Below are positions 2,023 through 19,623 of a DNA stretch of 64,000 nucleotides, one piece after another. Under the pieces are notes generated by a model that worked only from the letters and a program-made list of their open reading frames with translations, was not told the origin of the DNA and did no database searches. Source of the stretch: Rhodoblastus acidophilus (GTDB lineage: Bacteria > Pseudomonadota > Alphaproteobacteria > Rhizobiales > Beijerinckiaceae); contig NZ_JAOQNX010000025.1 in assembly GCF_025961575.1 (NCBI RefSeq), forward strand, positions 1 to 64,000, read 5' to 3'. Position numbers and translations under genes: made by a program. The first letter of the stretch is position 1. Every line of letters starts with the position of its first letter.

Positions 2023-2028
2023 GCTGCA

Positions 2029-2112
2029 ATTATGAGACTATATTATGAGACAGTCAAGCCGCTGATTTTCAAGGCCAGAAGAACTGTCCCAGAATTGTTG
2101 AATTTTGAGACG
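2029..2112. repeat. Iterated motif upstream of resolvase (candidate res/operator)
   Basis: The 10-mer ATTATGAGAC occurs at 2029-2038 and again at 2042-2051, a 13-bp period, directly in front of the resolvase start at 2022. A third related copy, ATTTTGAGAC, lies at 2102-2111. It forms the right arm of an imperfect inverted repeat with TGTCCCAGAATT at 2085-2096 (9 of 12 positions pair). Serine resolvases bind short inverted repeats next to their own gene and repress themselves there, so these are candidate subsites. This is inferred from position and repetition only. Confidence 0.45.
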
Positions 2113-2266
2113 CTACCCGCGTGTGGTGGGGTCACTTGATGCGCTGGGATGCCGTCGCGCGATTTGAAACTCTTCGACGAGATGGCTTGCGCCGAACCGC
2201 GCCGATCGCGGCTACGGGTCGAGACCTGCCCGACGAGGCGGGCGCGAAAGGACATTTAGGCCCGCC

Positions 2267-2698: not shown

Positions 2699-2767
2699 CG
2701 GGTTGGCTCCTTCTTACAGTTCGGATCAGCACGCGGCGGCGCCATAGCCGTTGTCGCCAATGTCCCG

Positions 2768-4758: not shown

Positions 4759-5703
4759 TTGCTTGGAAAAATGTTCCGCGCCCATCGGGAGGCCCATGGG
4801 CTGTCTCGCCAGAAGGTTAGTGAACTTTCCGGCCTATCTCCTGCTCAACTTTACCGCCTTGAAGCGCGCAACGAGGCGACCCTCAAGACTTTTGAACTCG
4901 GCGCCGCCGCGATCGGCCTTGATTTCAAGCATTTGGTCGCCGCCCCGACACTGGGCGGCCAGATTAAAGCGGAGCGCACCAAGCAAGGGCTCAGCTTGAG
5001 GACACTGTCGGCGATGACAGGCGTCAGCGTCGGCACCATCAGACGCATAGAGCGTGACGAGGCACACATCGCGAGTGCGGCCAAGATTATGTTTTCGCTT
5101 TCGCCTCAAGCCGCGCCGAAGACGGTTCGACGTGGACCAATAGTTCGAAACCGCGACGTCCAGTTGACGCCTCCTGACCTTCTCGATCAGCTACGCGAAC
5201 TTTTCGGACCAGTGTGTCTAGACCCTTGCGGCAACAATAAAAGCTTTGTGGACGCGAAAACAACGTATTATGAATACCAAGACGGCCTGAGCCTTCCATG
5301 GAAGGGGCATTTTTGCTTCGCAAATCCTCCTTTTAGTGCCATGGCGCCGTGGTTGCTCCGCGCGCATCAGGCATGGAAGTCTGGTGACGTGAAGCGGGTC
5401 GTCTTGCTGCTGCCGATCCGGGCGATCGGCAGCCGCGCGTTTATGAGCGTGGCGCATGACGCGCTTGTCTTTGTGCTGCCGAAGCGTCTGCGGTTCTGGT
5501 CAGCCCAGACCCGTCAGCCGATGCGCGTGACCGCGCCCATGCCTTCGATCGTGGTTCTGTTCGGCGACGAACTTGCGCGGCAAGCGGCCCGCTCGTTGTG
5601 GGGGAATTTCCAATTCACCGCGACCGATCCCGCGAATGTGGACCATCCTGCCGAGACGGGGAGTCGCCCTGTTTCGGTTTCGCAGAATTCACTATTGTCA
5701 TAA
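4759..5703 (+). CDS. Double HTH_XRE + phage-type DNA N6-adenine methyltransferase fusion
   Basis: 314 residues from a TTG start (an ATG at 4771 is the alternative). Two Cro/C1-type helix-turn-helix domains come first: about residues 3-58 (GLSRQKVSELSGLSPAQLYRLE) and 64-110 (GLSLRTLSAMTGVSVGTIRRIE). The rest (about 132-290) matches the phage Dam-like family: LTPPDLLDQL, then CLDPCG, then DGLSLPWKG and the catalytic motif NPPF near residue 190, followed by a VVLLLP strand. It would methylate adenine N6 at a sequence I cannot predict. Methylases of this family are normally single-domain phage proteins; two specific DNA-binding domains at the N-terminus suggest targeting or autoregulation. The AT-rich upstream region is a likely operator. 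Confidence 0.8.
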   Translation: MLGKMFRAHREAHGLSRQKVSELSGLSPAQLYRLEARNEATLKTFELGAAAIGLDFKHLVAAPTLGGQIKAERTKQGLSLRTLSAMTGVSVGTIRRIERDEAHIASAAKIMFSLSPQAAPKTVRRGPIVRNRDVQLTPPDLLDQLRELFGPVCLDPCGNNKSFVDAKTTYYEYQDGLSLPWKGHFCFANPPFSAMAPWLLRAHQAWKSGDVKRVVLLLPIRAIGSRAFMSVAHDALVFVLPKRLRFWSAQTRQPMRVTAPMPSIVVLFGDELARQAARSLWGNFQFTATDPANVDHPAETGSRPVSVSQNSLLS

Positions 5704-6025
5704 TCCGTCTGTCGGCAAATCGACGCAAATCAGTCCGTCAAGAAAATTTTCGATCCGGGGCGCATGGACGTCTTATGGGGGAGATGCGCTGTGATGCGCA
5801 GGAAATAATGCTTGACGTTGCTTTTGCTCCCGCATTACAACATCTTTAACATTACATACAACATTGACATTGCCGTCGATAGATGTAATAATGGTTGCAT
5901 AGTTTGCTGAGGCGATTTCTCCTATCATTCTCGAAGAGTGCATGACGGCTCGGGCGTGAGTTCGATGCATACCCGTTTTGCAGAAAAGATTCATGCAGTG
6001 GATAGATTGTCGCGAGGCTCGTGCA

Positions 6026-6589
6026 ATGTCGTTTTCATACCATACAAAAAGACCTTCAGGCGAGTATGATCGTTTCGATGAAATTCCGAAATACATACCG
6101 ACAAATATCGCAAGCATTGAATGGAATGGCGTGCATATAAAGCGTGCAATAGATGCTATATTTCCTGCTCGCATAGCAGTGGATTGTAATTTTGCGTGGC
6201 CAAAGCTAATTGAGACATTTGAGTGTCCGCTTGTGATGCAATGGCCCCCTTATTCAATCGGTGAGAGACGTTTGCTGATGGCCAACGTGAAAAAATCATA
6301 CAGTCATTATGGCCCAATCGACAAACAGAAATCCGTGACGTGGGGCGTCATGGACGTTTCCGAGGCTTTTGAAAAGAAATCAGACGCGGATGCATACAGA
6401 AAGCAAGAATGGCCAGAAGCGAAGTTAAGCAGAACTAGCAAAAGCGGACTAATATATTTTAGGAATTTCACAGACGGCATTCCGAGCGACCACTGCGAGT
6501 CGCGTGGTGAAACCATATGGACAATTAAGGCGAGATATCTTTGTTTTCGGAGTGACGCTGATGCTGTGATTGCCAAAATGCTCTTATGA
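6026..6589 (+). CDS. Hypothetical protein, low GC
   Basis: 187 residues from the ATG at 6026, chosen because GAGG lies eight bases upstream; an in-frame extension to 5978 exists. The composition is that of a soluble globular protein (many aromatics, Lys, Asp: YDRFDEIPKYIPTN, VMQWPPYSIGERR). The base composition is clearly more AT-rich than neighbouring genes, a sign of separate acquisition. I do not recognise any domain. It is isolated, with about 320 bp of gap on the left counting from the methylase gene and a decayed region on the right. Confidence 0.5.
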   Translation: MSFSYHTKRPSGEYDRFDEIPKYIPTNIASIEWNGVHIKRAIDAIFPARIAVDCNFAWPKLIETFECPLVMQWPPYSIGERRLLMANVKKSYSHYGPIDKQKSVTWGVMDVSEAFEKKSDADAYRKQEWPEAKLSRTSKSGLIYFRNFTDGIPSDHCESRGETIWTIKARYLCFRSDADAVIAKMLL

Positions 6590-7156
6590 GCCGCCTCTAA
6601 TACCGCGCTAAGTTCAAAGGCACTCGACCGGCAAGAACGGGTAGAATTAGTTGTTTCTTGCCCAAGTGGATAGGTGCCCGCCGGTCATCGGCGAGGAGCA
6701 GTTGCGGAAGCGGCTGCGTCGGCGGCAAGGAAGGGCGTGACGAACTCAGCCGAACGGTCTCCACCAGTAAGCCACTCCGCCAAAAAGTTCGCGTAACGAT
6801 CCGGGCTTCACGGGCTTCTCAATCTCGACCAGCACCATCGCCGCGATTCCGCGCTGCAAGCATGTCGCCGCCATCCTCTTCCGCGCAGCCGAAGCCGGCG
6901 GTGATCGCCTTTATCATCGCCTTTTCGGCCTTGATGATCACGACACGCTCTTTCACGGCGAGTGTATAGCCTCTGTGGAGGTTGAGCTTACCTTTCAGCG
7001 ACATGGCTTCACAGCGAACGCTCATGCATGAGTCCTGCGCCCCAAGCCGGGCTGGCGCGCCGAATGGGCCGATCGCTTCCGCAAACGTTGACTCTTTCTT
7101 CGATCAGTGCGCGCGCGACATAGAAATCGCGGCTGGATCGGCCCGGCGGTCCGTCG
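6590..7156. other. Gap with only a possible broken small gene
   Basis: No intact gene is convincing between the hypothetical protein and the hybrid kinase. The minus strand contains two frame-shifted coding-like pieces, listed separately at 6746-7025. The remainder shows no RNA-gene or promoter pattern that I can support. Confidence 0.4.
6746..7025 (-). pseudogene. Possible frameshifted small gene
   Basis: Reading from 7025 leftwards, the first frame encodes a protein-like stretch (LKGKLNLHRGYTLAVKERVV, then KAMIKAITAGFG) and stops at 6819. The overlapping next frame carries a second protein-like stretch (AAMVLVEIEKPVKPGSLREL) to a stop at 6746-6748. Joined by a one-base shift near 6865 they would give one protein of about 90 residues. 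I do not recognise the family; the KP near the end recalls the tail of receiver domains, but that is weak. It could also be chance. Confidence 0.25.
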
Positions 7157-9106
7157 TCAGCTTCGCAACAACGTCGCCAATTTGCGCGCCAACTCGTGGG
7201 GATTGACGGGCTTGTGCAACATCTCAAATCCACTGGTATAAACTTGGCTAATCCGCTCGGGTGCGGTGTCGCCAGTAACGATCAACGTCGGGATCGTGCG
7301 TCCAGCGCGCGCGGCGATCTCGATGGCGGTTTCGGTGCCGGACAACCCGGCGCCCAAGCGGTGATCGGCAATCACGAGGTCAAATCGCCAACCTTCCCGT
7401 TCTCCGACCTCGATTGCCTCCTCCCCGGACTCGACACCGATAACTTCGCAATTCCAGCTTCCAAGGAGCAATTCGAGCCCGGCACGGACCTTGGGATCAT
7501 CCTCAATCACCATTATGCGCCGCCCGGTGACGGTCTCTGCGGCGGCTGATGGAGCGGAAACTACAAAGAGCGGATCAGCGATGGGCACTGTAAGCGTGAA
7601 CCATGTTCCCCGCCCTTCACGAGACCGCACCTGCAAATCGGCCCCAATCAGGCGAACGAGCCGGCTGACGATGGCAAGGCCCAGTCCAAGCCCTTGCCTC
7701 TGATCTCGCCCCGGATTGGCGACCTGATAGAACTCCTCAAAGATGTGCGTAAGCTTGTCCGCCGGGACGCCGACGCCGCTGTCCACGATGTCGATTCGAA
7801 TTCGGTCTCCGCGCTGACGGGCGCCGATGAGCAGGCCGCCGCGATCCGTGTAGCGGATGGCGTTTTCGATTAAATTTCGCAGGATGCGCTCAAGTAGCGC
7901 GGCGTCCGTTCGGGCATGCAGGTCAGGTTGGAAACGACAACGAAGCCTCAGATTCTTCTGCTCACATTCGAGCGTATAGCCGTCGCACAGGCGACGGAGC
8001 ATCCCGTCCACCGCAACGCTCTCCAACTGTGGCGCCACGACGCCCGCATCAACGCGTGAGATGTCGAGGATGCTGGTGAGCAGCGATTGCAGCCCGACCA
8101 GCGCGGACTCCATCATACCGACGGCCTTTTCAACCGTCTCCGCTCCGGCTTTCGGGTTTTTTATGACTGCAAGCAAAAGGACGAGTGCTTGCACAGGTTG
8201 GCGCAGGTCATGGCTGGCGGTGGCCAAGAACTTGGAGCGGGCGAGCAAGGCTCGGTCCCCCTCGGCCTTAGCGATCTTTAGGGCATTCTCCGCTCTTTTC
8301 TGTTCGGTGATCTCACTGACCGTAGCGTTAACTCCGGTGATATTCCCCGCATGATCTTCGAATGGGTAAAGGCTCAATAGCCAATGGCGCGAGAAAAAAT
8401 CATCCTCTTGGCTCTCAGTGCTAAACTCTCGCTCAAAGATGGGTTCTCCGGTATCAAGGACCTGTTTGTATAAAGCTTCAAGTCGTCGCCCAAAATCACC
8501 CAGAACCTCACTTAATGTGCGCCCAATATGAGCCTCAACAGATATTCCATTAACTGACGCAAGATATTTGTTAATCATTACGAATCGCAAATCGCGATCA
8601 ATGAAGCAAAGGCCGACGGGAGCCGTATCATATACCCTTGCAAGCTTTTGGTTGGCTGCTTTAATGCTTGTGATATCGGCTGATACGCACACAATGCCGA
8701 TAACCGACCCATTACCGACGCAAAGCGGCGCCTTGGTTGACCGAAACGTCCGCGTGCCCTGATCGGGTGTATCCCATATTTCCTCGATCACCTCGGGAAT
8801 GCGGGTCTGCATGATGCGCCGGTCGTTCGCCATGACGGTAGCGGCCTGCTCCGGATCGGAGTGTAAATCGGCGTCGGTATGGCCGAGCACATCATCCGCG
8901 CTCTTTCCGATCACCCTGAGAACCGTCGGATTCGCGTAAATAAAGCGACCATTCAAGTCTTTAGCGTAGATCGCGTCTGACGAAAGATCACCAATAGCCT
9001 TGAGGAGCGCGGTTGTCGGATGATCCTCAGTCCCGAGAACGGTAATCTTCCCGACCAATGACTCAGCCTCCAGAAAAATTTCGCCATGCCCTCGCCCACA
9101 CGGCAA
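7157..9106 (-). CDS. Soluble hybrid histidine kinase (PAS-PAS-HisKA-HATPase-REC)
   Basis: 649 residues without any membrane segment or signal peptide. PAS1 spans about 35-150 (DAIYAKDLNGRFIYANP, ends VSADITSIKA). PAS2 spans about 155-270 (TAPVGLCFIDRDLRFVMINK). The dimerisation/phosphoacceptor domain carries His299 in SHDLRQP. The ATPase domain has the N-box NLIENAIRYT (411-420), the DSGVGVP G1 box (442-448) and GLGLGLAIV (472-480). A C-terminal receiver follows, with acidic residues IEDD (534-537), phosphoacceptor Asp581 and Lys632. This domain order resembles cytosolic FixL/NahK-like hybrid kinases. The signal is unknown. No dedicated response regulator is visible nearby, so output may pass through a phosphotransfer protein elsewhere. 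Confidence 0.9.
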   Translation of the reverse strand: MPCGRGHGEIFLEAESLVGKITVLGTEDHPTTALLKAIGDLSSDAIYAKDLNGRFIYANPTVLRVIGKSADDVLGHTDADLHSDPEQAATVMANDRRIMQTRIPEVIEEIWDTPDQGTRTFRSTKAPLCVGNGSVIGIVCVSADITSIKAANQKLARVYDTAPVGLCFIDRDLRFVMINKYLASVNGISVEAHIGRTLSEVLGDFGRRLEALYKQVLDTGEPIFEREFSTESQEDDFFSRHWLLSLYPFEDHAGNITGVNATVSEITEQKRAENALKIAKAEGDRALLARSKFLATASHDLRQPVQALVLLLAVIKNPKAGAETVEKAVGMMESALVGLQSLLTSILDISRVDAGVVAPQLESVAVDGMLRRLCDGYTLECEQKNLRLRCRFQPDLHARTDAALLERILRNLIENAIRYTDRGGLLIGARQRGDRIRIDIVDSGVGVPADKLTHIFEEFYQVANPGRDQRQGLGLGLAIVSRLVRLIGADLQVRSREGRGTWFTLTVPIADPLFVVSAPSAAAETVTGRRIMVIEDDPKVRAGLELLLGSWNCEVIGVESGEEAIEVGEREGWRFDLVIADHRLGAGLSGTETAIEIAARAGRTIPTLIVTGDTAPERISQVYTSGFEMLHKPVNPHELARKLATLLRS

Positions 9107-9362
9107 CGCTCATGTTAGCGCATGGAATTCAACAACGGGAGACGCATTTCTCGGCTGTGGCGATGTGCGCTCGATCAAGTTCGATGTGACCGGCTGCCGC
9201 GACACTCCCGCCCGCGCGCCCGGCGAGTTCGTTGCTTCTGAATCCGTGTTTGCACCGGCCCCGACGGGCGCACGGCGAGAAGCGATCCCGCCCACGCCCT
9301 CGCGGGCAAACCGTTTTGTCGCGGGTCCATCAGGTCAGTGTCCAGCTTTCATAAATACGATC

Positions 9363-9686
9363 ATGAAAAACCAAACCAAAAACGGGGCACACGCGCAGAG
9401 AATGCGCTGCATCGAATTGTTAAAAAGGATCGCTGCGGCCAGAATCGCGGCGCAAGCCGCTCAAAAAGTCGTCATAAATAACCCTCAACAAATCCTCTGC
9501 GACGGCGCGCTGGCGCAAGACATCAAGCAAGAACTCGTCTGGCGGGGTAAGCCGTTCAAGATCGTCGGACAAATTGGGCCGGATGATCCTCACGGCTTCC
9601 CACTCGGCGACTATGTGCTCGAAATCGAGCTTGCGGACGCTGCGTTTTTCAAAATGCACGGCGATCGGGTGAGGCTGATCCAGTGA
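9363..9686 (+). CDS. Small protein A of island module A-X-B
   Basis: 107 residues from the ATG at 9363; an upstream extension to 9165 is open but has non-protein-like composition. The N-terminal half is an alanine-rich helix (ELLKRIAAARIAAQAAQKVV). The C-terminal half is a compact domain with the pattern IL-x-C-x-G..DI.QEL, DP.G, GDY, DA and a final V.LI. The same C-terminal pattern forms the whole of the 67-residue protein at 16341-16544, so the two are paralogues. The next gene starts within the stop codon of this one (GTGA overlap), which indicates translational coupling. Family and function are unknown to me. Confidence 0.65.
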   Translation: MKNQTKNGAHAQRMRCIELLKRIAAARIAAQAAQKVVINNPQQILCDGALAQDIKQELVWRGKPFKIVGQIGPDDPHGFPLGDYVLEIELADAAFFKMHGDRVRLIQ

Positions 9687-10126
9687 GATACCGGGAAGTG
9701 TTCGAGCACATCACGCAGGGCGTGCGATATTACGATCCCGACCCGGATCGGGTTAATGGCAGCCAACCCGCTGGACCCAGCGACCGCGAGTTTGTCCTCT
9801 GGTTTCCCGGATCATTGGACCGCGCTTTACACATTCTCGCCCAATGCGGCGACACGACCAGTCGAGCATGTCAGTTTTGGCTGGCCCGCTTCGATGACAG
9901 GCTGACCAGAGCCGGCTTTCTTCAAATCTGGTCCGACGCTCGCCGCGTGGATGGGGCGTGGCTCGTGCCCGACGTTCTTGCTCTCGAATGGCTGCGCGAT
10001 TCTGCCGGCGTTCGATTGTCCCAATGCGTCGAGATCAGATTTTCGTCGCAAAAGCAGCGGGATGCGTTCATCGCCAAAGCGGGAAATGCTTCAGCCGCGC
10101 CTTCGCCTATGCCGTTGATTTTCTGA
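9683..10126 (+). CDS. Hypothetical protein X of island module A-X-B
   Basis: 147 residues from a GTG that overlaps the stop of protein A by four bases. Its C-terminal part (ALEWLRDSAG followed by VEIRFSSQKQRDAFIAKAG, about residues 98-134) aligns by eye with the equivalent part of protein B (AREWIAENARG then VWVLFLSAEHQERFEKAI). That suggests X and B are distant relatives in tandem. Tryptophans and an acidic surface pattern point to a soluble protein. No catalytic motif is evident. Position in a coupled gene set beside a restriction enzyme invites an anti-restriction or accessory role, but nothing in the sequence proves it. Confidence 0.65.
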   Translation: MRYREVFEHITQGVRYYDPDPDRVNGSQPAGPSDREFVLWFPGSLDRALHILAQCGDTTSRACQFWLARFDDRLTRAGFLQIWSDARRVDGAWLVPDVLALEWLRDSAGVRLSQCVEIRFSSQKQRDAFIAKAGNASAAPSPMPLIF

Positions 10127-10181
10127 ACCCAATTTCGTGGGAGATTGTTTTGTGCCGTATAGCCCAAACGATATAACAATC

Positions 10182-10601
10182 ATGAATTACTCGCTGTCGA
10201 TCGCGTTCGCCGAGATGGTCCTTGCGCAGATTGATGATAGCGATAGTCGCGCCGGTTCCTTCCAGACGGTCAGGTTTCTAAATGACGGCGACGCTTGCCT
10301 CTACCGGCTCAAATTTCCGCGAATCCTCAGATTGAACGAGCGAGAATGGACGATGTCCGCTGACGACGACGCGCGCGAGTGGATTGCCGAAAATGCCCGT
10401 GGAGCCGAAATACGAGACTGGGTCTGGGTCCTATTTCTATCAGCGGAACATCAAGAGCGGTTCGAGAAAGCTATAAAGCTCTCCGCGCCGCACGCAGAGG
10501 TCTGGACAGGGACCGGCGACGCCGCGTCGCTAATGCCAAGCAGACTTTGTGCTCCGCCGCGTTCAAGCGATGATCCCCTCACCGCTCTTGCAGTTCAGTG
10601 A
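10182..10601 (+). CDS. Hypothetical protein B of island module A-X-B
   Basis: 139 residues from the ATG at 10182, 55 bp after protein X (an upstream GTG at 10137 is open). Conserved features, judged against the frameshifted copy at 16549-16939, are FQT.RF, DACL.RL, EWT, WI.E.A, DW, SAE and VWTG. The protein is acidic and soluble with no signal peptide. Its end overlaps the end of the convergent Type ISP gene by seven bases, so the two messages can pair at their 3' ends. No family is recognised; paralogy to 16549-16939 is visible directly in the sequence. Confidence 0.7.
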   Translation: MNYSLSIAFAEMVLAQIDDSDSRAGSFQTVRFLNDGDACLYRLKFPRILRLNEREWTMSADDDAREWIAENARGAEIRDWVWVLFLSAEHQERFEKAIKLSAPHAEVWTGTGDAASLMPSRLCAPPRSSDDPLTALAVQ

Positions 10602-13600
10602 ACGAGATGCGCCCCCGGCTCCAAGATGTCCAGCGCAGGCAGATTCCGCACGATCCGCATGGTTTCGAGGCTGACCGTGATCACCCGGCAGAACAGCATG
10701 AGCGGATAGGCCGGGTCGCCGACCGTCTCGATGGCATAGCGGTTGGCGTCGTTGACGATGCCGCTGGCTGGGTCGGTTTTGACGCACTGCCGCTCCATGA
10801 CCCATTCCAGCGCGGGCTTGCCGTTCACGACGTAATCATAGGCTTCCAGCGGGATGTCCGTCATGGTGATCCGGGGATTGTAAACGACCGTCGTCTTGTC
10901 GATCGCGCCGCGCTTGCCGGCGAACTTCATTTTCTCGACGCGGTAATACGCCACCGGGTCGGGGATGTGGGCAAGGCGTAGGTCGCCTTCCTTGATCGTC
11001 ACTGGGTAAGGCTCGACGCTCTCGAAATCGACGTGGAGATCGCCGAGCCGGCGGCCCGCCTCAACAAAGGCGCGAAAATCCTCTACGCGCTTCATCAACG
11101 GGATGCGAGGCAATTGTTTCGACAGGTTGTCGGCGTAGCGTTCGCGATATTCCTCCGAATGCAGCAGGCCGTAAACGTAGTAGAAGACATCGTCCTTCGT
11201 GATCGCCGCGTCGGGATAGGCGTCGGTGAAAACTTTGAGGCCAACGTCGGTGATTGCGTCGCGTCGAACTGCTGCGCGACTATTCAGGTGTTCGAGCAAG
11301 TGTCCTTGATTTGAGCGGTCGCTCGGCGGGCCGTCGTAAATATATCTGGGAAAACATTGATATCCGCCCATTCCGGGGGCGAGATTAAGGTCAGGTATTG
11401 CATTCACCAAAAGGGCAGAAAAGCCCTTATCTCCACCTGTGCCCGGCACGCAAATAAGAAGATTGTCCGTTGTTATCTCGTCGATAGCGAACAAGCGCGG
11501 CATCTGATAGACCATATCATTAAATGCACGGTTGTAGTAAAGCCACTGACGCATGAATGGGCGATAAAGGCTTGGCACCAAACATTTCTCAGAGAAATCG
11601 AAACGCCTTTCTTTTGCGAAATCCGCCTTTAAGCTTCTGTTCCAACTAATTTTGCTCGTGTCGGTATCAACAAAATCGTCGACGACGGCAGTCCGGTTTT
11701 TTCCGGTCGCATCAGTGAACGTGGCTTTGAACCGGTGAAGCTCTGAGTTGTAAAAAGCAATCATTGACCTCATGTTCTCGGTCAACGCTTTGCGGCTGTA
11801 GTTGTAAGCCCACGCATCTCGCGCCGTCGCAACGCCTCTTGAGAAGTTTTCAAAGATACATTGAGAATTGTCGTTTTCTTTGTTCCCAAGGACCAGAAAC
11901 GCATTGAAGTTTTCATCACGTTTGCTGAGCCAGTCCCCGTGCTCGTCGGGAATGACAATGCTCCAACCGTTGGCTCTCGTTATTCCGCCGATGCTGGCGA
12001 GCTTAGCCGTAGCTGCAAGCTTCTGCTCACGCGACAGATAGTCTCCCACGTCGTGCCAGCAGACTTTGCCTCGTTCGTCCGAGGCCGGATTGATGACCAT
12101 CACCATCACAACCACAGGCTGGCGACTTCCTTGGCCAAAGATTTTGCCACCTTCTTTACGGGATCGTTCGCCGGAGGTGCGCTGGTTGCCGCGCAGATGG
12201 AACACGTGAAGGCTTGTTGCTTCTTTTCTCAAACACTTGCGCAATCCGTCCATTGTGCTGCCGTCGAACCATCCTCCATCAGTCACGAACGCCATAACGC
12301 CACCGGTTTCGCTCAAGCGGTCGCTGGCCCAGCGGATTGCTCTGATGTAGCTATTGTAAAGAGCGTTTTTGTTGGTCGCGTTTGATTGTGCGGCATAAGA
12401 TTCACGGATTCGCTGATCCAAATGATCGTATCGGACGTTGGCCGCGTTATCGTTCGCGCTCTTCTGGCCGGCAGAATACGGGGGATTGCCAATGATAACC
12501 TTGATGGGAAGCTTTTTCTGTCGCGTTCGCCGAGTCGAGTTGTCCGCCATTATTCCAGTGATCAGGTCATCTTTCTCCCAAAGCTGGAATGTATCCGTCA
12601 GACAGATGCCGGGGAATGGCTCGTAAGCTCCTCCCATCTGCTCGTGATAGGCCGCCTCAATGTTGATGGCCGCAATGTAATAGGCCAGCAGCACGATCTC
12701 GTTGGCGTGGATTTCGTGGCGGTATTTGCGCGCCATCTGCTCCGGCGTGATAAGGCCCGATTGCAACAGCCGCGTGATGAATGTGCCCGTGCCAACAAAC
12801 GGATCGATGATGTGGACGCCCTCGCTGCCGAGGGTTTGGCCAAACTCCGATTGTAGGACCTCATCCACGGACTTGATGATGAAGTCCACCACCTCGACCG
12901 GTGTGTAAACGATGCCCAGTCGCGCGGTCAGTTTGGGGAACGCCGCCTTGAAGAACTTGTCGTAAAGCTCGACCACGATCTTCTGTTTCGCGGTGGCGTC
13001 CTCGATCCCCTGCGCGCGCATTTTCACCGACGCATAGAACTTGTCGAGCTTCGTCGCCTCCTTGTCGAGGTTTTGCCGGTCCAGCACGTCCAGAACGCTT
13101 TGCAGGGCCTTCGAGACGGGATTGTGCTGGGCGAAGCTGTAGCCCTCGAACAGAGCGTCGAACACCGGGCGCGTGATGAGATGTTGAGCCAACATCTCAA
13201 TGGCTTCATCCTCGGTGATGCTGTCGTTTAGATCGTCGCGAATTTCGGCGAGGAAGGTCTCGAACGCGCGTTTCTCCTCCGAACCCGCCGCCCTTACCGC
13301 CGCCCGAATTCTGGTCACGTGAATCTCGGCAATCCGCGCCACGTCGGTCGCCCAGTCCTCCCAATATGTGCGCGTCCCGCATTTCTTGACGATCCGCGCC
13401 ATGATGGCTTTGGAGAACTCGTCAAAGCCGAAGGTCAATTGGGTTTGGGGGATGATCCCGCTCGAAATGGAATCTCCCGGCTCGACATCGACCGCGCTGC
13501 CACGTCCGAGGTCCAAGCCAGCGTCACAAGCTGCGGCGCGCTTCGGCAACGTGTTGGTGACGGCGACAATCTCGATGCGCTCGCCGGGGTCGACGCCGAG

Positions 13601-15538
13601 ATCGATCTTGTTGATGGTGGCGTCGAACCGGTCGTCATGGGCGCGCAACGCGTTCAGTATTTGCCAGACCACCTTGTATTTCTCATTATCGTCGAGAGCC
13701 TTTTCGGGCTCGACGCCAGCGGGAACGCCAACGGGCAAAATGACGTAGCCCATCTTCTTACCTTCGGCGCGACGCATGACGCGCCCGACGGATTGGACCA
13801 CGTCGATCTGCGACTTACGCGGATGCAGGAACATGATGGCGTCGAGCGCGGGCACATCCACGCCTTCAGACAAACAGCGCGCGTTGGTCAGAATCCGGCA
13901 AGGGCCGCTTTCCCCGGTGTCCTCCTTCAGCCATGACAGCAGGTGATTGCGGGCGTGCGCGCTGAAACTGCCGTCCACGTGTTCGACTTCACAATCCAGC
14001 AGCGGTATGACCTCGGCAATCTTCGGATCGAGCGCGTCGCGCCATTCTTCGGCGACCCGTTCGAACTCTTGCTGCACCAGCTTCGACCGCTTGATGTCGC
14101 GCGTGAACGCCAGCGCGCGGCGCATGGGACCGGTATCGCCCGCGACATCGGGTTTGAGGTCGGCCTTGGTGAGAGCCTTGTAACAGCCGACGATCTTGGT
14201 CGCGTCGTCGAGGATCAGTTCACTGTTTTCGTCAGCGAGACGCTTTTGCAGGGTTGCGCTGATCGCCTCTTCGTCGACCGCCAGCACGATGACCTTGTAA
14301 TCGGTCAGCAGGCCATTCTGGACCGCCCACGAGAAATTGCGCGTGAACAGCGTCTCACCGAAATAGGCGGGGTTGTCCATCGAGCACAGGACGGCGTTGG
14401 CGTCGCTCGCGGTTCGCTTCACCGCGTCACCAAAGATGCGCGGCGTGGCCGTCATATAGAGACGCTTGGCGCCCTTGATGTAGTCGGCGTTGTGGACGCG
14501 CACGAAATTGCTCTCATCCTCGCCCTCAAGGGTCACGCCGGTCGTGCGGTGGGCCTCGTCGCAGACGATGAGGTCGAACTCTGGCAAACCGAAGTTGGCC
14601 TGCGCTTCGTGAATCGCTTGAATCGACTGGTAGGTGGAAAAGACCACCGTCATGCGATCGGGATCGGCGGCGTTGGCTTTGGCCGCCAGTTTCGCGCCGT
14701 GCGTGGTGGCGGGGATTTCGAGGTCGTGGACATCAATGTCGGCGAGATCGCCATCCTTGGCCTTGCGGACGCCGACCTGAACATCAGAGCAAACGGCGAA
14801 GGATCGGAGCGGCACGACGCAATCAATCGACCACTCGCGGATGGTCTGGGACATCAGGGACAGCGAGGGCACCAGAAACAGAACTCGGGCGCCTTTGCCC
14901 GCCATGGCCTCCGCGATCTTCAATGCCGTATAGGTCTTGCCGGTGCCGCAAGCCATGATCAGCTTGCCGCGATCCGCCGTCTTCAAGCCTTCCTGAACTG
15001 CCGCCAGAGCTTCGGTCTGGTGAGGACGGGGCTGTTTCTTTTCAACGAGCCGCACGACCTTTTCACGCGCGAAGGTCGCCCAATCGATGCCGCTGTCTTC
15101 CAGATCGCTTAGGCCGACGCGCGTGGTGTCGATGGTTTGGTTGTCCAAAGCGGCGTTGGCGTGTTCACTCCATTGGGCGTCGGTTGTGTCGACGATCATT
15201 CGGCGGACTAACGGACGGCGTCCGGACGCGGTGAAAAAGCTATCGATGTCCGACTTCTGGATTCGATAGCCTTCCCGGTAGAATTTGCATTGGACGGCGC
15301 ACCAGTCGTCAGGGCTGTCGGAAAGCTGGGCGACGAGATCGATGCCGGTGTCGCGCTGATCAAGCCGATTTTCCCTTGCCCATTCCGCGTAGGTCAGCAC
15401 GCGCGAGAACTGCGCCTTTTGAGTCGGAGCGTTCTCCAGCCAGACCTTCGTCAGTTGCTCGAAATAGGCGCCCTTTTCTCGCTCGGACGCTGCGTTTTTT
15501 CTATATATTTCAAGTAACTGGCGGAGATTTGTCGGCAT
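10595..15538 (-). CDS. Type ISP restriction-modification enzyme (nuclease-helicase-methyltransferase)
   Basis: 1647 residues from the ATG at 15538, where family-like sequence begins (MPTNLRQLLEIYRKN). A 57-residue open extension to 15709 looks non-coding. An Mrr-like nuclease domain carries D..GID and QCK (about 63-85). An SF2 helicase has GTGKT (198-202), DEAH (327-330), TATPR (about 363) and QSVGRVMRR. A helical coupler follows. The N6-adenine methyltransferase has DPFVGTGTF (about 911) and NPPY (about 1018). The C-terminal 500 residues should be the target-recognition region. This is the LlaGI/LlaBIII architecture: one polypeptide recognises an asymmetric site, methylates one strand, and translocates with ATP to cut unmodified invading DNA. 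All motifs are intact. Confidence 0.92.
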   Translation of the reverse strand: MPTNLRQLLEIYRKNAASEREKGAYFEQLTKVWLENAPTQKAQFSRVLTYAEWARENRLDQRDTGIDLVAQLSDSPDDWCAVQCKFYREGYRIQKSDIDSFFTASGRRPLVRRMIVDTTDAQWSEHANAALDNQTIDTTRVGLSDLEDSGIDWATFAREKVVRLVEKKQPRPHQTEALAAVQEGLKTADRGKLIMACGTGKTYTALKIAEAMAGKGARVLFLVPSLSLMSQTIREWSIDCVVPLRSFAVCSDVQVGVRKAKDGDLADIDVHDLEIPATTHGAKLAAKANAADPDRMTVVFSTYQSIQAIHEAQANFGLPEFDLIVCDEAHRTTGVTLEGEDESNFVRVHNADYIKGAKRLYMTATPRIFGDAVKRTASDANAVLCSMDNPAYFGETLFTRNFSWAVQNGLLTDYKVIVLAVDEEAISATLQKRLADENSELILDDATKIVGCYKALTKADLKPDVAGDTGPMRRALAFTRDIKRSKLVQQEFERVAEEWRDALDPKIAEVIPLLDCEVEHVDGSFSAHARNHLLSWLKEDTGESGPCRILTNARCLSEGVDVPALDAIMFLHPRKSQIDVVQSVGRVMRRAEGKKMGYVILPVGVPAGVEPEKALDDNEKYKVVWQILNALRAHDDRFDATINKIDLGVDPGERIEIVAVTNTLPKRAAACDAGLDLGRGSAVDVEPGDSISSGIIPQTQLTFGFDEFSKAIMARIVKKCGTRTYWEDWATDVARIAEIHVTRIRAAVRAAGSEEKRAFETFLAEIRDDLNDSITEDEAIEMLAQHLITRPVFDALFEGYSFAQHNPVSKALQSVLDVLDRQNLDKEATKLDKFYASVKMRAQGIEDATAKQKIVVELYDKFFKAAFPKLTARLGIVYTPVEVVDFIIKSVDEVLQSEFGQTLGSEGVHIIDPFVGTGTFITRLLQSGLITPEQMARKYRHEIHANEIVLLAYYIAAINIEAAYHEQMGGAYEPFPGICLTDTFQLWEKDDLITGIMADNSTRRTRQKKLPIKVIIGNPPYSAGQKSANDNAANVRYDHLDQRIRESYAAQSNATNKNALYNSYIRAIRWASDRLSETGGVMAFVTDGGWFDGSTMDGLRKCLRKEATSLHVFHLRGNQRTSGERSRKEGGKIFGQGSRQPVVVMVMVINPASDERGKVCWHDVGDYLSREQKLAATAKLASIGGITRANGWSIVIPDEHGDWLSKRDENFNAFLVLGNKENDNSQCIFENFSRGVATARDAWAYNYSRKALTENMRSMIAFYNSELHRFKATFTDATGKNRTAVVDDFVDTDTSKISWNRSLKADFAKERRFDFSEKCLVPSLYRPFMRQWLYYNRAFNDMVYQMPRLFAIDEITTDNLLICVPGTGGDKGFSALLVNAIPDLNLAPGMGGYQCFPRYIYDGPPSDRSNQGHLLEHLNSRAAVRRDAITDVGLKVFTDAYPDAAITKDDVFYYVYGLLHSEEYRERYADNLSKQLPRIPLMKRVEDFRAFVEAGRRLGDLHVDFESVEPYPVTIKEGDLRLAHIPDPVAYYRVEKMKFAGKRGAIDKTTVVYNPRITMTDIPLEAYDYVVNGKPALEWVMERQCVKTDPASGIVNDANRYAIETVGDPAYPLMLFCRVITVSLETMRIVRNLPALDILEPGAHLVH

Positions 15539-15756
15539 TCCGGCACCGTCGGCAAATTGTCTGAGTCGAAAATTTGGTCGACAGGCTATAACGTTGGGGC
15601 AAACACGGCCATGGCTATTTGGCGATTTGCACGGGGATATTGTGCTGTAGTCCGCGTCTACGCAGATTGAGGCGTTCACCGGCCTCGATGACGTCAGAGT
15701 ATGGCTCACTGATCACGGCAGTGGCCGGTGAAATCTCCATTTAGATAAATAGATTC

Positions 15757-16314
15757 ATGAAGTTGGACGAATTCCAGCGACCGCCCTGTGGGTCATTGCT
15801 ATCGGGCAAAGTCCGCCATTTTTGCAGACAAGCTTCGTGCATGAACTGCACGCGTTACGCGGTGAGGCGCCGTTCGACGTTGTTTGCAGGGCGGTGCGCG
15901 CCATGGGCACCCGAGCTTTGGGTATCATTCGTCACGCCGCTGAACGGAATCCCATTCTGGTTGCTCCGACGGCGGCTTCATGACGCTGTCGATCACCGCC
16001 GCGAGAAACATTCGATCTGGAAAAGCTTCGGCCTGATCGCTCGCTGGGACGGGCGGGACAAAGTTCGCGGCGTCGCGTGTCTCGCGCGGCTTGGCTCCAA
16101 TGACATCATCGAACTGATCGGATGCGATGATGTGCGCGCCTTGGAGCAGAATGACGCCAAAACCGTCGCCCAGACGCTTTTGGCTGGGCCAATCGCGCCA
16201 ATATGCGGATCGTTGAAAGGCGTTTTTCTCACGGTGAACCCCAGAACCGGGGCTCGGAATGTGCCCAGCGCGCCCCAGCCCCGCTACTACGAACCCATGC
16301 CATTTCTCTTTTAG
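15757..16314 (+). CDS. Doubtful reading frame upstream of protein A'
   Basis: An open frame of 185 codons with odd composition in its first 80 residues (Cys, Arg, Pro rich). The second half is more protein-like (KSFGLIARWDGRDKVRG, NDIIELIGCDDVRALEQND). A second frame on the same strand, from a TTG at 15822 to a stop at 15981-15983, also reads like protein (FDVVCRAVRAMGTRALGIIR). The opposite strand is open too (15925-16320). One interpretation is a frameshifted gene spanning two plus-strand frames. I cannot choose between them and assign no function. Confidence 0.25.
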   Translation: MKLDEFQRPPCGSLLSGKVRHFCRQASCMNCTRYAVRRRSTLFAGRCAPWAPELWVSFVTPLNGIPFWLLRRRLHDAVDHRREKHSIWKSFGLIARWDGRDKVRGVACLARLGSNDIIELIGCDDVRALEQNDAKTVAQTLLAGPIAPICGSLKGVFLTVNPRTGARNVPSAPQPRYYEPMPFLF

Positions 16315-16340
16315 AATCAATACATTGAAGGATAACTCAT

Positions 16341-16544
16341 ATGAACAAATCCACCATTCTTGTCACCTGCGGAGGAATCGCGGGTGATATCCGTCAGGAA
16401 CTTGGCCCTGCGCGCTCGCAAGTGAAAAAAGTTCACCATGGTGATCCGGTCGGTTCCTACGGCGACTTCATTTTTCGGGTTTCTGAAAACGATGCTGTGC
16501 GGATGATGCTGAAATACCCGCACGCGGTCGAAATCATTCCGTGA
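16341..16544 (+). CDS. Small protein A' (paralogue of protein A)
   Basis: 67 residues with a good ribosome binding site (GAAGGA eight bases before the ATG). It aligns with the C-terminal domain of protein A at 9363-9686: IL, a small residue pair, DI.QEL, DP.G, GD followed by an aromatic, DA, and a final V.II. It lacks the alanine-rich N-terminal helix of A, so A' is the minimal form of the domain. Four bases downstream begins the broken B' gene, repeating the A-then-B order of the first module without X. Function unknown. Confidence 0.65.
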   Translation: MNKSTILVTCGGIAGDIRQELGPARSQVKKVHHGDPVGSYGDFIFRVSENDAVRMMLKYPHAVEIIP

Positions 16545-16548
16545 TGCA

Positions 16549-16939
16549 ATGACCGATTCAACCCGACCATTTGGCGTGTATCCGCTTGAAATCTCTGCTG
16601 TTGAAGCCCTCTTTGTCGAGACAGGAGATCGGAAGTTCGCAGAAGCGTTCCAGACCGCTCGGTTCGTGCGATGTCGACGCCTGCCTTCATCGTCTCGCCT
16701 CTAAAACATGCCGGCTGACCGCGAAAGAATGGACGATTCAGAACGGCGAAGACGCCGTCAGTTGGATCGGAGAACACGCAAGCGATAGCCCCACCGTGAA
16801 CGACTGGTGCTACATCATATTTTGCTCGGCTGAAGCCAAAGCCTTGCTTGACGATGCTATTCGACGACAGCATCCAGAATGTGGGGACGTCTGGACCGGG
16901 CAATCGATCCGGGCCAAGTTGCCTCGATCACGGGAGTAG
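16549..16939 (+). pseudogene. Protein B' with a frameshift (paralogue of B)
   Basis: Translation from the ATG at 16549 gives a B-like start that includes EAFQTARFV, then runs into a stop at about 16705. The overlapping frame continues the alignment from CDVDACLHRL through LTAKEWT, WIGEHA, DWCYIIFCSAE and DVWTG to 16939. The junction lies near 16665-16680, just after the FQT.RF motif. Compared with B at 10182-10601 the order and spacing of conserved motifs are the same, so a one-base shift broke this copy, unless it is a sequencing error or programmed frameshift. No slippery heptamer is evident at the junction. Confidence 0.7.
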
Positions 16940-16965
16940 GCGGCGACGAATCGCCCGCACTGGCG

Positions 16966-17190
16966 TCGAGATGTGGCCAGTCGTCAGCGTCGAACTCGCT
17001 CTGCGGCAGATTTCGCGGCGATCGCCTCGACCTTCACAGTGCAAATGACGCCGCCTAGCATGTCCAAATCCATGCCGCCGGTCGTCGAACCTTTATGCTG
17101 CGCATGAACACGATGGTTGCACCTCACTCGGATTTCGTCAGGTTCGCAGAGATGGTCAATTGCTGGTCGATCAGTTCCGAAACTTCACCC
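16966..17190 (-). pseudogene. Degraded second copy of the ASCH gene
   Basis: The plus-strand text here tracks the plus-strand text of the ASCH gene (2280-2620) in several blocks: GTGGCCAGTCG at one end, a CTCTGCG.CAG block, a central CATGAA block preceded by GCTGCG, and TTCGTCAGGTT near the other end. About 100 bp present in the intact gene (around 2320-2420) are missing, removing the segment containing the PCRGWPG motif, and the N-terminal part with the SIRQPW motif is gone. It is therefore a remnant in the same orientation as the intact gene. Confidence 0.75.
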
Positions 17191-17203
17191 GTTGTTTTTC
17201 GAT

Positions 17204-17269
17204 TTGACATATATATGCGTGTAGTCCATATTATGCGTTAGCGCAATTAAAATCAGTCCAGCATATATG
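17204..17269 (+). promoter_or_regulatory. Promoter and repeat operator upstream of MarR-like gene
   Basis: A perfect -35 hexamer TTGACA (17204-17209) is followed 19 bases later by TATTAT (17229-17234), or 17 bases later by CATATT. Overlapping them are two direct repeats, CATATATATGCGT (17208-17220) and CATATTATGCGT (17227-17238). An inverted copy, GCATATATG, lies at 17261-17269, just ahead of the ribosome binding site AGGAG. MarR-type regulators commonly bind such AT-rich repeats over their own promoter, so autoregulation is likely. Confidence 0.55.
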
Positions 17270-17285
17270 GTCAGGAGAAATCGTG

Positions 17286-17768
17286 ATGCCACCCGACGGC
17301 ACTATGGGCTTCATGCAGTCGCCGGCTCAGCTTGCGCACGGCAAGAAATCGCCGCGAATCAAGTATCAAAACCAGTTGGCGTTATCCGCTGCGGCGGTGC
17401 TGTCGGTCCTAACACAGGAGAGCAAGAAGCTGCCATTGAGCCATTATTTCGCGTTCCTTCGCATCGCGGAGCAGAAGGGAACGACGGTCGGCGATCTGGT
17501 GCGGTTGATGCAGATCGATCAGTCAACCGTGAGTCGGATGACCGACAGTCTGTCGGAGTGGGGTCGGGACGGAGGTCCGGGGCTTGGTCTGATTGAAAGC
17601 ATTGATGATCCCCGCGAGCGACGTAGGAAGGTCTTTTTCCTGACCCGCAAGGGACGCGAACGGATCAATCAGCTTCTGTCCCTGCTGAACGCCGATCATG
17701 TGACGGATTTTGAGCCGATGATGAAGGAGCAGTTCATAGAGGAGTGGAAGACCAAGAAACTTAAATGA
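17286..17768 (+). CDS. MarR-family-like winged-helix regulator
   Basis: About 160 residues from the ATG at 17286 (a GTG at 17283 is equally placed behind AGGAG). The winged helix spans roughly residues 45-125: LSHYFAFLRIAEQKGTTVGDL, recognition helix QIDQSTVSRMTDSL, and a wing containing DDPRERRRKVFFLTRKG, the usual MarR DPRD/R..LT.KG pattern. The C-terminal dimerisation helix is short. It stands between the RM locus and the intron-bearing tRNA and recombinase genes, so it may control island functions. The strong promoter overlapped by repeats suggests autoregulation. The ligand cannot be predicted. Confidence 0.8.
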   Translation: MPPDGTMGFMQSPAQLAHGKKSPRIKYQNQLALSAAAVLSVLTQESKKLPLSHYFAFLRIAEQKGTTVGDLVRLMQIDQSTVSRMTDSLSEWGRDGGPGLGLIESIDDPRERRRKVFFLTRKGRERINQLLSLLNADHVTDFEPMMKEQFIEEWKTKKLK

Positions 17769-17841
17769 ATTTTTGGTGGGACCTACCCGATGATCGCGGC
17801 CTAGCATGAGGCGCGAGTATGGGATATGAAAACGGTTTAGA

Positions 17842-18167
17842 GGCCCCTTGGCGAAATTGGTAGACGCAGCGGACTTGACCCGCGCTTAGGCGCGACCACG
17901 AGTGCCCCGGTGGAAACGCCGGGAGTAGAACGACCCAAATTCGGGGAAGCCTCACGGCGGTGCCGTTGGTAATCCCGAGCGAAGCCCTCAGTTTGGGGGA
18001 ACGTGTAGAGACTAGACGGGTCGCAGCTACGGGTGTCGGCAGACGCCTATGCTGAAGGGATAGTCCAGACCACAAACGGGGCAACATGTCCCGGCGGCGG
18101 AAGCCGTAGCTGGTAAGAAAATCCGCATCCTTCGGGAGTGCCGGTTCGACCCCGGCAGGGGCCACCA
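17842..18167 (+). tRNA. tRNA-Leu(UAA) interrupted by a group I intron
   Basis: The 5' exon (17842-17876) gives acceptor GGCCCCT, a D-arm with GCG/CGC, and the anticodon stem GCGGA followed by loop bases CTT. The 3' exon (18118-18167) continues AAAA, then TCCGC, a variable arm, the T-arm GCCGG-TTCGACC-CCGGC, acceptor AGGGGCC, discriminator A and an encoded CCA. Spliced, the loop is CTTAAAA, so the anticodon is UAA and the amino acid leucine. The intron lies between U34 and A35. The gene is on the island, 73 bp after the MarR-like gene and about 120 bp before the recombinase start, in the same direction. Confidence 0.95.
17877..18117 (+). ncRNA. Group I self-splicing intron (241 nt) in tRNA-Leu(UAA)
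   Basis: Core elements are recognisable in order: P (AAATTCGGGGAAGCC, about 17938-17952), Q (GGTAATCCCGAGC, 17968-17980), R (GTAGAGACTAGACGGG, about 18005-18020) and S (AAGGGATAGTCC, about 18055-18066). The intron ends in G. The 5' exon ACTT can pair with an internal guide GAGT at 17900-17903, leaving the conserved U.G wobble at the splice site. Between them is a small hairpin, CGCGC-TTAG-GCGCG. No homing endonuclease is encoded. Size, position and P/Q/R/S sequences resemble the cyanobacterial and plastid tRNA-Leu(UAA) intron class. Confidence 0.93.
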
Positions 18168-18290
18168 ACCTCTTCAAGAAACACGTGACGATGAAGTGTT
18201 TTTCATACGTGCAGGCTGTTGTGGCTAAAACCGTGCCCAAATCCCCAAACTCACGAGAGAAAGACAGAGAAAAAATTTTGGAGAAAAGAA

Positions 18291-19415
18291 TTGACAAACA
18301 GAAAACAGTTCAAGGTGAACACGAAAGTTGCACCGCGCGGCAAATCATTTGAAGCCACAATCTCGTGGACACCTGAAAAAGGCGCCAGCCGCCGGGAGCG
18401 AATTTCATTCGCCACCGAAAATGAAGCAGAGATGTGGGCGGCAGAGGCAAAGGTTGCCATCATGCGCGGAGGCGAACCGGATATGCTCGGGCGCGCCCGG
18501 AAAGACGATAAGCCCCGAACGCTTGCCGATATGATCGAGTATGTGTTCGCGAACTATTGGAAGGAACAGGCCGGAGGCGAGAAGCAACGCCAAAACGCCT
18601 ACGCTGTTGCCGACCTCCTTGGCCGCAGCAAGATGCTGTCGAAGATCGGCGCCTTCGAAATCAATAAGGTGACGGCGGAACTCAAAGCCGGTGGCAACTC
18701 TGGTGCGACCATCAACCGCAAGCTAGCTGCCCTGCGTCGATGTCTGACCGAAGCGGTCAAGCTCGAAGTCATTTCCAGCCGCCCGACGTGGAAAAAGCAA
18801 AAGGAAACCGAGGGGCGGATTGCCCGCATTTCGCGCGATCTCGAACGTCGGATGCTGGCGTGGTGCAAGCGGATGAGCTTGGACGACATTCACGATTTCA
18901 TCCTGTGGTCGATCAAGGTCGGCAGTCGGAACGGCGAATCGTTGAAGATCACGTTCGCCGACGTCAACCTGCGCGGGAAGACGGCCAACTTTCCCGCCGA
19001 GATCACGAAGAACAAGAAGTTCCGCGCAGTCCCTATCGAGCATCCCGCCGTCATCGAGCTTGTCGAGCGGCGCCGCAAGGCGGCCACGTCCGACGAGCAG
19101 CGCATCTTTGCTGGGCTGACAAAGCGTAAGTTCGATGTGCAGTGGGAAAAGATGCGCGAGGCGTTCGATCTCGTGGATGATCCTGACTTCGTTCCGCATG
19201 TAATTCGCCATGAATTCTGCTCGCGTCTCGCCGAAGCCAACGCAAGCGCGAGCTACATTCAAATGCTGGCTGGCCACCTGACCCTCGCCGTCAGTCAGCG
19301 GTATGTGCATATGTTCGGCAAGGAGGCTCTGGAAGGAGCACGCCGGTTTGTGGACGTGGACGCGGAACCCGTGTCCAACGTTGTGGCTATGGAAAAGGCT
19401 AGGAATCGCAGCTAG
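18291..19415 (+). CDS. Tyrosine recombinase/integrase of the island
   Basis: 374 residues from the TTG at 18291, chosen because GGAGAAAAG stands just upstream; the frame is open back to 18219. An N-terminal arm-binding part is followed by a SAM-like core-binding domain (about 70-160, ending NRKLAALRRCL). The catalytic domain has the first Arg in VGSRNGESL, the beta-hairpin Lys in TKNKKFRAV, H-x-x-R in HVIRHEFCSRL, the second His in LAGH and the nucleophile Tyr in RYVHM. It would integrate and excise the island at tRNA-Leu(UAA). It reads towards the tRNA fragment at 19561, the usual gene order at an attachment site, and is followed by a strong terminator. Confidence 0.93.
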   Translation: MTNRKQFKVNTKVAPRGKSFEATISWTPEKGASRRERISFATENEAEMWAAEAKVAIMRGGEPDMLGRARKDDKPRTLADMIEYVFANYWKEQAGGEKQRQNAYAVADLLGRSKMLSKIGAFEINKVTAELKAGGNSGATINRKLAALRRCLTEAVKLEVISSRPTWKKQKETEGRIARISRDLERRMLAWCKRMSLDDIHDFILWSIKVGSRNGESLKITFADVNLRGKTANFPAEITKNKKFRAVPIEHPAVIELVERRRKAATSDEQRIFAGLTKRKFDVQWEKMREAFDLVDDPDFVPHVIRHEFCSRLAEANASASYIQMLAGHLTLAVSQRYVHMFGKEALEGARRFVDVDAEPVSNVVAMEKARNRS

Positions 19416-19423
19416 TTGCGCAC

Positions 19424-19455
19424 GGGGAAGGGGATTGATCCCCTTCCCGCGTTTT
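19424..19455 (+). terminator. Intrinsic terminator after the integrase gene
   Basis: A perfect 11-bp stem (GGGAAGGGGAT at 19425-19435 with ATCCCCTTCCC at 19438-19448) closes on a two-base loop and is followed by GCGTTTTG. It ends the integrase transcript before the tRNA fragment. Confidence 0.85.
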
Positions 19456-19560
19456 GTGGCGGATCGTGCGAAAACTGTTGCCACAACGGAAGTGATTTAT
19501 GCGTTAGTGCATATGAAAATTGCGATATTTCAATTAATTGCGCTTGGTCTTTTCCGCTGT

Positions 19561-19623
19561 GCAAGAGACTTAAAATCTCTCGGCCGCAAGGCCGTGCCGG
19601 TTCGAACCCGGCCGCCCGCACCA
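19561..19623 (+). repeat. 3' fragment of tRNA-Leu(UAA): island attachment site remnant
   Basis: The segment gives anticodon stem AGAGA/TCTCT around loop CTTAAAA (anticodon TAA at 19571-19573), a long variable arm, a T-arm with GGTTCGAACCC, acceptor half CGCCCGC, discriminator A and CCA. The matching 5' half (GCGGGCG and a D-arm) is absent upstream, so it cannot be a working tRNA. Such 3' tRNA fragments are left at the far end of elements that integrate into a tRNA gene. Its stems differ from those of the intron-containing tRNA at 17842, so the two are not the two ends of one integration event. Confidence 0.88.

Follow-up and report, generated by a model that had tools for sequence, protein, structure and literature searches.

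A Rhodoblastus acidophilus island that splits the resident tRNA-Leu(UAA) gene and carries its own putatively compensating copy, interrupted by a group I intron

In the classical tRNA-gene island, as the Islander abstract puts it, the target is regenerated at one end and a displaced fragment is left at the other; Islander lists 2083 of 3919 islands as anticodon-centred, a favoured att site. According to the description of tRNA-dependent lysogeny in actinobacteriophages (PMC10865867), integration destroys the host tRNA gene, and a tRNA of the same isotype encoded by the element keeps the cell alive; the word "intron" occurs once in the text of that paper, in the title of a reference. Group I introns are reported in the T-loop of tmRNA, which is also a common integration target (PMC11915505). 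In searches of the openly licensed literature, none of the titles and abstract openings listed describes an intron-bearing compensating tRNA. Here we describe an island in the alphaproteobacterium Rhodoblastus acidophilus for which we suggest, with considerable confidence, tRNA-dependent integration with a compensating tRNA-Leu(UAA) that is matured by a group I ribozyme.

The window analysed is a stretch of 64,000 nucleotides (positions 1 to 64,000 of contig NZ_JAOQNX010000025.1). On its forward strand lies a tRNA-Leu(UAA) gene in two exons, 17842-17876, which ends at U34, and 18118-18167, which encodes the CCA end; between them, an insert of 241 nt with a terminal G (17877-18117, forward strand) splits the anticodon loop. 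A preliminary description of this DNA had read these exons as joining into a complete tRNA-Leu(UAA) around an insert of this length and position, and both parts of this reading hold: ARAGORN with introns allowed reports tRNA-Leu(taa) i(36,241), and in the predicted fold of the joined exons the acceptor, anticodon, variable and T arms form. Default ARAGORN, which allows no introns, finds zero tRNAs in the window. The guide sequence that had been proposed to give a U.G pair at the 5' splice site can also be read directly, as the U ahead of the splice site pairs with G (ACUU versus GAGU). Cyanobacterial and plastid tRNA-Leu(UAA) introns have a terminal G and a core of the same kind.

The group I core elements claimed in the preliminary description are borne out by covariation. 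We aligned the window intron with 47 introns from relatives using a covariance model; of the 1055 cells in the helices P3, P4, P6, P7 and P8, among them those of the P3/P7 pseudoknot, 99.8% are paired, a count somewhat favoured by the placing of the helices on the window sequence. At 10 of the 22 core pairs both sides have changed, in 68 cells altogether, a level of covariation reached by 0 of 500 shuffles, while slid controls are 25-50% paired; the model used for the alignment already contains some of the counted helices, though not P7. The entire pre-tRNA folds with a z of -3.25. The intron core is fully formed, and P3, P6, P7 and P8 covary. The covariance search with Rfam gave a more mixed answer: RF00028 does match the intron (34.1 bits, E 4.6e-7, when 501 bases are searched), but the score falls short of the gathering score of 50 bits, which is why a whole-window Rfam search at gathering scores returns an empty list. 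Since 19 of the 26 genomes of relatives that are positive for RF00028 are likewise without a match above the cut-off, the cut-off is strict for this intron subclass. A covariance model built from nine introns gives the window intron 155.7 bits, a match by construction, as the intron is one of the nine. Self-splicing of the intron is what we infer from these features. The P10 guide is atypical: the core is preceded by the three bases CAC, whereas TT stands there in 36 of the 37 other tRNA-Leu(UAA) introns read, so that the P10 pairing with AAAA of exon 2 looks weak.

That this tRNA is borne by an island, as had been proposed, is supported by a step in G+C content, by an integrase and by att cores at a broken resident gene. 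The right-hand part of the island occupies window positions 1-19560, with a G+C content of 0.54-0.59 per 2 kb versus 0.63-0.70 beyond 20 kb; the left-hand part, also of low G+C, is found on another contig (G000:C33:45859-53197). At the right end lies a 21-bp att core, GCAAGAGACTTAAAATCTCTC (19561-19581, forward strand), which is repeated exactly at the left end (G000:C33:45838-45858). Between the split tRNA and the high-G+C side there is a tyrosine integrase, followed by the 3' half of a resident, intronless tRNA-Leu(UAA) gene (19561-19623, forward strand), with an intact anticodon arm and severed from its 5' half. The 5' half is located at positions 45814-45858 of C33, where it runs into low-G+C DNA with no tRNA 3' half; the 21 bp of GCAAGAGACTTAAAATCTCTC are common to both halves. 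The two island ends thus lie on different contigs, C33 and the window's own C25, which are not joined by sequence. A match on a third contig, C54, was considered as the resident 5' half and rejected.

In the congener G001, the flank on the C33 side and the flank on the window side are collinear and meet at an intact intronless tRNA-Leu(UAA) gene, their overlap being the same 21 bp as the core. The overlap is 21 bp in G008 and 22 bp in G005, both with more gaps in the flanking matches, so the uninterrupted site is seen in all three congeners compared. An intact intronless tRNA-Leu(UAA) gene was read in 7 of 10 congeners, and it is absent from the stretch fetched for each of G003, G007 and G009. 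The 21-bp repeat stops at the anticodon arm and the tRNA is not rebuilt, so the regenerated target of a classical island is not seen here; as far as the sequence tells, the element has integrated in a tRNA gene and left both halves incomplete. The preliminary description had missed two points: the resident tRNA-Leu(UAA) is broken by the island, and no intact copy other than the island's own was found. It had also considered that the same intron might sit in the resident gene of all relatives; this was found in 0 of 10 genomes of the genus. The island also encodes a single-chain restriction enzyme of type ISP/IIG (window 10595-15709; Pfam; PADLOC, 2198 bits), several of whose neighbouring genes have no assignment.

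The tRNA adjoins the integrase, as it would if the intron-bearing gene were the resident one and the island had integrated at its 3' end and rebuilt it. To this ordinary arrangement we give next to no weight and have rejected it on account of the broken resident gene, which lies in two halves elsewhere and is whole and intronless in congeners; low-G+C DNA flanks the intron-bearing tRNA on both sides, and no second copy of its 3' end was found in the window (25 bases with up to 3 mismatches, or 14 bases with up to 2).

RF00005 finds 47 tRNAs in the genome, the split one not included, and ARAGORN assigns an anticodon to all 47. By the two methods, none of these is a tRNA-Leu(UAA), in a genome rated 100% complete, so the island copy must serve. 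The element encodes the same isotype as its target, tRNA-Leu(UAA), and a cell that carries the integrated element is expected to need the element's tRNA to survive. UUA codons would be readable only once the intron has spliced, and the cell appears to depend on an intron that removes itself. Of 23 host-like open frames, 6 contain TTA codons (7 among 13,198 codons), and because they are so rare there, the tRNA might be less than essential. This scarcity and the atypical P10 guide would also suit a dead intron, with UUA being read by another tRNA. We believe this to be very improbable, however, as the core is fully formed and no other tRNA-Leu(UAA) was found, and the island frames use TTA more (18 of 5,543 codons).

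The split tRNA is part of an integration module, together with a MarR-type regulator (17283-17768, forward strand; Pfam MarR, PHROG 9665) and the tyrosine integrase, a 398-aa open frame at 18219-19415 on the same strand (PF00589, E 2.5e-17) whose true start is probably further in. Among named phages, the top-ranked relatives of the integrase belong to temperate T7-like phages; 85 phage records match, all with less than 60% identity and the first with 33%, and the best 40 of the 85 were inspected. Over the aligned part, the MarR protein is 26-36% identical to the product of the gene just upstream of the integrase in seven of eight T7-like phages, with no match in the eighth, BB8. Among eight phage records fetched of the 85 matching, there are six in which a complete tRNA-Leu lies no more than 2 kb from the integrase, with the anticodon UAA in LUZ100, YIMV22061 and Pasto and UAG in RHEph21, RHEph01 and TRX32-1, while no tRNA was seen near the integrase of BB8 and RHph_I20. 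LUZ100 and TRX32-1 share with the window the order of small regulator, tRNA-Leu and integrase, their tRNA being in the opposite direction. Direct relatives of the integrase are present in 3 of 396 other genomes of the family (E 1e-25), and a single-protein scan found none in the genome-contig or viral-contig sets.

A similar association is seen in uncultivated viruses and in chromosomes. We took the best 80 of 460 integrase relatives in IMG/VR, and ARAGORN finds a tRNA gene in 39 of the 80 loci (25 Leu-UAA, 8 Leu-CAA, 4 Leu-UAG, 1 Lys and 1 Cys; 35 distinct tRNA sequences), while 41 have none, some of these being cut by contig ends. In the first 21 of 50 chromosomal loci, a tRNA-Leu lies within 1.5 kb in 13, one of them in a tRNA cluster, another tRNA in 3 and none in 5. 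Five viral loci have a GACTTAAAATC core 8-11 nt beyond the tRNA, which we read as a putative attP. One viral contig carries a hammerhead type II ribozyme upstream of the integrase (L114:1325-1394; Rfam 38.2 bits, cut-off 37). The intron model finds no match in 93 other loci, and in 26 further stretches (21 genome loci, wider views of three relatives and two stretches of this genome) it reaches only 10.5 bits (E 0.7); in the absence of a convincing match in related loci, the window is an exception in its own integrase family.

The relative G014 harbours an element of ~42 kb with a T7-like RNA polymerase (50% to LUZ100) at ~114.8-157.3 kb of its contig (G014:C13; L340-L342). Its integration has split a tRNA-Leu(UAA) gene, with a core of 8 bp, and the element brings a tRNA-Leu(UAA) of its own whose variable loop is short; only some of the 42 tRNAs of G014 had their anticodon assigned, and we make no claim that the element's tRNA is the sole one for UAA. 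In the Rhodoblastus island, two partial phage RNA polymerases used as queries gave no match in window 1-19581 or in C33:33200-53197, on contigs that are unjoined. The authors of the LUZ100 study propose imprecise excision as the way in which the phage acquired its tRNA-Leu (PMC10134795); compensation for a broken host gene fits the phage tRNA-Leu data better.

The course of events that we favour is then as follows. The island carries a MarR-tRNA-Leu-integrase module of the temperate T7-like phage kind, whose integrase is predicted to have recombined the 21-bp island core with the anticodon arm of the host tRNA-Leu(UAA). The host gene is not rebuilt, its 5' half lying at one island end and its 3' half at the other, as the sequence of both ends shows, and the host would survive by means of the whole tRNA-Leu(UAA) that is present on the island. 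As this copy is interrupted after U34, it would need to self-splice before UUA can be read; the overall logic would be that of tRNA-dependent lysogeny, with a ribozyme maturing the compensating tRNA. The broken halves with their shared 21-bp repeat and the collinear uninterrupted sites in three congeners argue for this, as do the module order shared with LUZ100 and TRX32-1, the tRNA-Leu genes near related integrases, the G014 element, the lack of a tRNA-Leu(UAA) among the 47 other tRNAs, the occurrence of TTA codons in host-like frames and the intact, covarying intron core. Against it stand the CAC in place of a typical P10 guide, the RF00028 score below the cut-off, the position of the island ends on different contigs and the rarity of TTA in host frames; moreover, about half of the viral loci and two of the eight phages with related integrases show no tRNA.

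We know of no vehicle for the patchy spread of group I introns in tRNA genes. The preliminary description contrasted the intron with the well-known proteobacterial ones in tRNA-Arg(CCU) and tRNA-Ile(CAU), but tRNA introns of this class are no rarity in the order: counting the present one, 50 of 397 genomes of the order carry such tRNA introns, and 38 of the 48 introns read, the window's included, are in tRNA-Leu(UAA), the isotypes being a reading of the exons aided by ARAGORN, which misplaces several splice sites. RF00028 is positive in 26 of 150 relatives, again with this genome counted, and in 0 of 10 congeners. A mobile element as vehicle, which had been proposed for this intron, is plausible in general terms: contigs of IMG/VR matching the intron core came to 22 and then to at least 120 stretches, 99 loci were read (77 of them new; ~39 more were left out), and on 60 of the 99 ARAGORN with introns places split tRNAs that contain the core motif (62 calls, some with odd anticodons and doubtful). 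The donor of the window intron, in turn, is not resolved by a tree of the introns, in which it is a long branch of unsupported placement (no cyanobacterial intron is included). A clade of the window intron with two introns of tRNA-Thr(UGU) is not rejected (p-AU 0.33), nor is a single clade of all tRNA-Leu(UAA) introns (p-AU 0.25); the very long branch L190 was left out of that tree. One tRNA-Thr(UGU) intron of the pair has the same CAC ahead of the core as the window intron, while the second has GAC; this is a hint rather than a result.

Several of these introns lie in other hosts or settings. Introns of the class were found in tRNA-Thr(UGU) (L198, L210) and, by our own reading, in tRNA-Thr(GGU) (L290, L291) and tRNA-Leu(CAA) (L190); to our knowledge, none of these three has been reported as a host of such introns in alphaproteobacteria. 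Plasmid pCTX-M3 has an unannotated stretch (L484:2958-3256) with ~70% identity to the intron and to the first part of exon 2; it has an aac(3)-IId gene within 1 kb, is given an odd anticodon by ARAGORN with introns, and may be a tRNA-Leu intron gene or a remnant of one. Altogether 1271 plasmid records matched, and among the matches listed (the best 20 of the 1271) most are from Escherichia and Klebsiella. A plasmid of Bradyrhizobium sp. ISRA443, typed as conjugative, carries a tRNA-Leu(UAA) with a 204-nt intron (L485:3994-4283).

Within 2.5 kb of an intron-split tRNA, an integrase-like frame was found by profile in only 1 of the 99 IMG/VR loci, L387, a viral contig where the group I intron splits a tRNA-Lys(CUU) (L387:6025-6311) and where no second core was found in the locus. 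Among the genomes, another integrase-like frame lies within 1.5 kb of the intron tRNA in G019 (weak), G090, G444 and G553; a second GACTTAAAATC is present as one-mismatch copies in G444 and G553, and is not found in G090 or G019.

The intron may simply be a passenger, the element having taken up an intron-bearing tRNA-Leu(UAA), or the intron having moved into the element's tRNA, with no gain to the element. We regard this as probable, given how many genomes of the order have such introns and that no other examined locus of this integrase family has one; it is less easily reconciled with our failure to find a tRNA with these exons that could be the donor, and with a similar arrangement in an unrelated phage. 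This is the Gordonia phage Daredevil (NC_048021.1), the best (two records, E 1e-13) of 8 matching records when the pre-tRNA served as a blastn query against phages. In Daredevil, a group I intron of 238 nt interrupts a tRNA-Lys(UUU) gene (L483:4924-5235), ~570 bp from the integrase. In print, Daredevil is given as being without a tRNA of its own, its named target is tRNA-Lys-TTT, and a figure legend states that it lacks tRNA-Ile2-CAT; the tRNA-Lys(UUU) was probably overlooked because the gene is split. The clear plaques of Daredevil may mean that the intron tRNA does not work in Gordonia terrae. Four of five related phages fetched have a tRNA(CAU) at much the same place, and the fifth, BrutonGaster, has a tRNA-Lys(UUU) that is unannotated in the stretch inspected. 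In both BrutonGaster and OneUp, the annotation places a tRNA splicing ligase ~2-3 kb away from the integrase (L486:2664-3881 and L488:2047-3264). As the integrase of Daredevil has no significant BLASTP similarity to that of the window, the two are taken as apparently independent cases.

A different role for the intron is suggested by its position: by interrupting the anticodon arm, it could hide the element's tRNA from the element's own integrase, which would otherwise meet a second core near attP. In both cases the intron lies inside the att core sequence, next to integrases with no significant similarity, and in Daredevil the joined exons would hold a 16-bp exact copy of an attP-like core ~170 bp away, while five related intronless Gordonia phages share only 9, 10, 9, 10 and fewer than 8 bp. 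The joined exons of the window would share 11 central bp with its core. However, among 33 intronless T7-like modules there are 15 in which an attP-like copy no more than 700 bp away matches the module's own tRNA over 8-13 bp, the shortest of these matches perhaps being due to chance, and since these share as much, the window is not unusual in this respect; the lack of the intron from the other loci of the integrase family, the best score there being the 10.5 bits mentioned above, also speaks against such a role. Daredevil thus speaks for masking and the window is neutral, and because the anticodon loop is in any case where tRNA introns of this class are placed, we consider masking unlikely on balance. 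A shade more doubtful still is the wider proposal that intron-split compensating tRNAs would be a distinct and repeatedly evolved device, working as RNA while the gene is invisible to its own anticodon-loop integrase. If this were true, anticodon-loop introns in resident tRNA genes would by the same logic make hosts immune to such elements; this idea is testable.

On the preferred reading, that of tRNA-dependent integration, a mobile element has replaced a host gene with an intron-bearing one, and the intron would thus be kept for as long as the element stays. This would widen the range of tRNA-dependent integration to include an island and also, judging from gene order, the temperate T7-like phages, in which the tRNA-Leu had previously been read as a leftover. 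For annotation, the lesson is that compensating tRNAs can escape tRNA finders that do not allow for introns, Daredevil being a published negative that has such a gene.

The island resembles tRNA-dependent lysogeny, as set out by Guerrero-Bustamante and Hatfull 2024, in its tyrosine integrase, its core in the anticodon arm, a tRNA that is not rebuilt and the supply of the same isotype; it differs from those phages in being an island, in its alphaproteobacterial host, in an integrase of the T7-like type and in a compensating tRNA split by an intron. The core of 21 bp compares with 8-17 bp in those rows of Table 2 examined that are marked No for tRNA reconstruction (PMC10865867). With the cyanobacterial and plastid introns (PMC4033280), it shares tRNA-Leu(UAA) and the anticodon loop, but here the intron is on a mobile island and the resident gene is intronless. 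LUZ100 (PMC10134795) has the same MarR-tRNA-Leu-integrase order with related integrase and MarR proteins, whereas its T7-like RNA polymerase has no counterpart found in the sequenced parts of the island. In Daredevil, too, an intron-split tRNA lies near the integrase and has the isotype of the named target, but the integrase is unrelated, and Daredevil is a phage with tRNA-Lys(UUU) where we have an island with tRNA-Leu(UAA). What the present case adds to tRNA-dependent lysogeny as described for actinobacteriophages is that it concerns an island, that the host is an alphaproteobacterium and that an intron interrupts the compensating tRNA.
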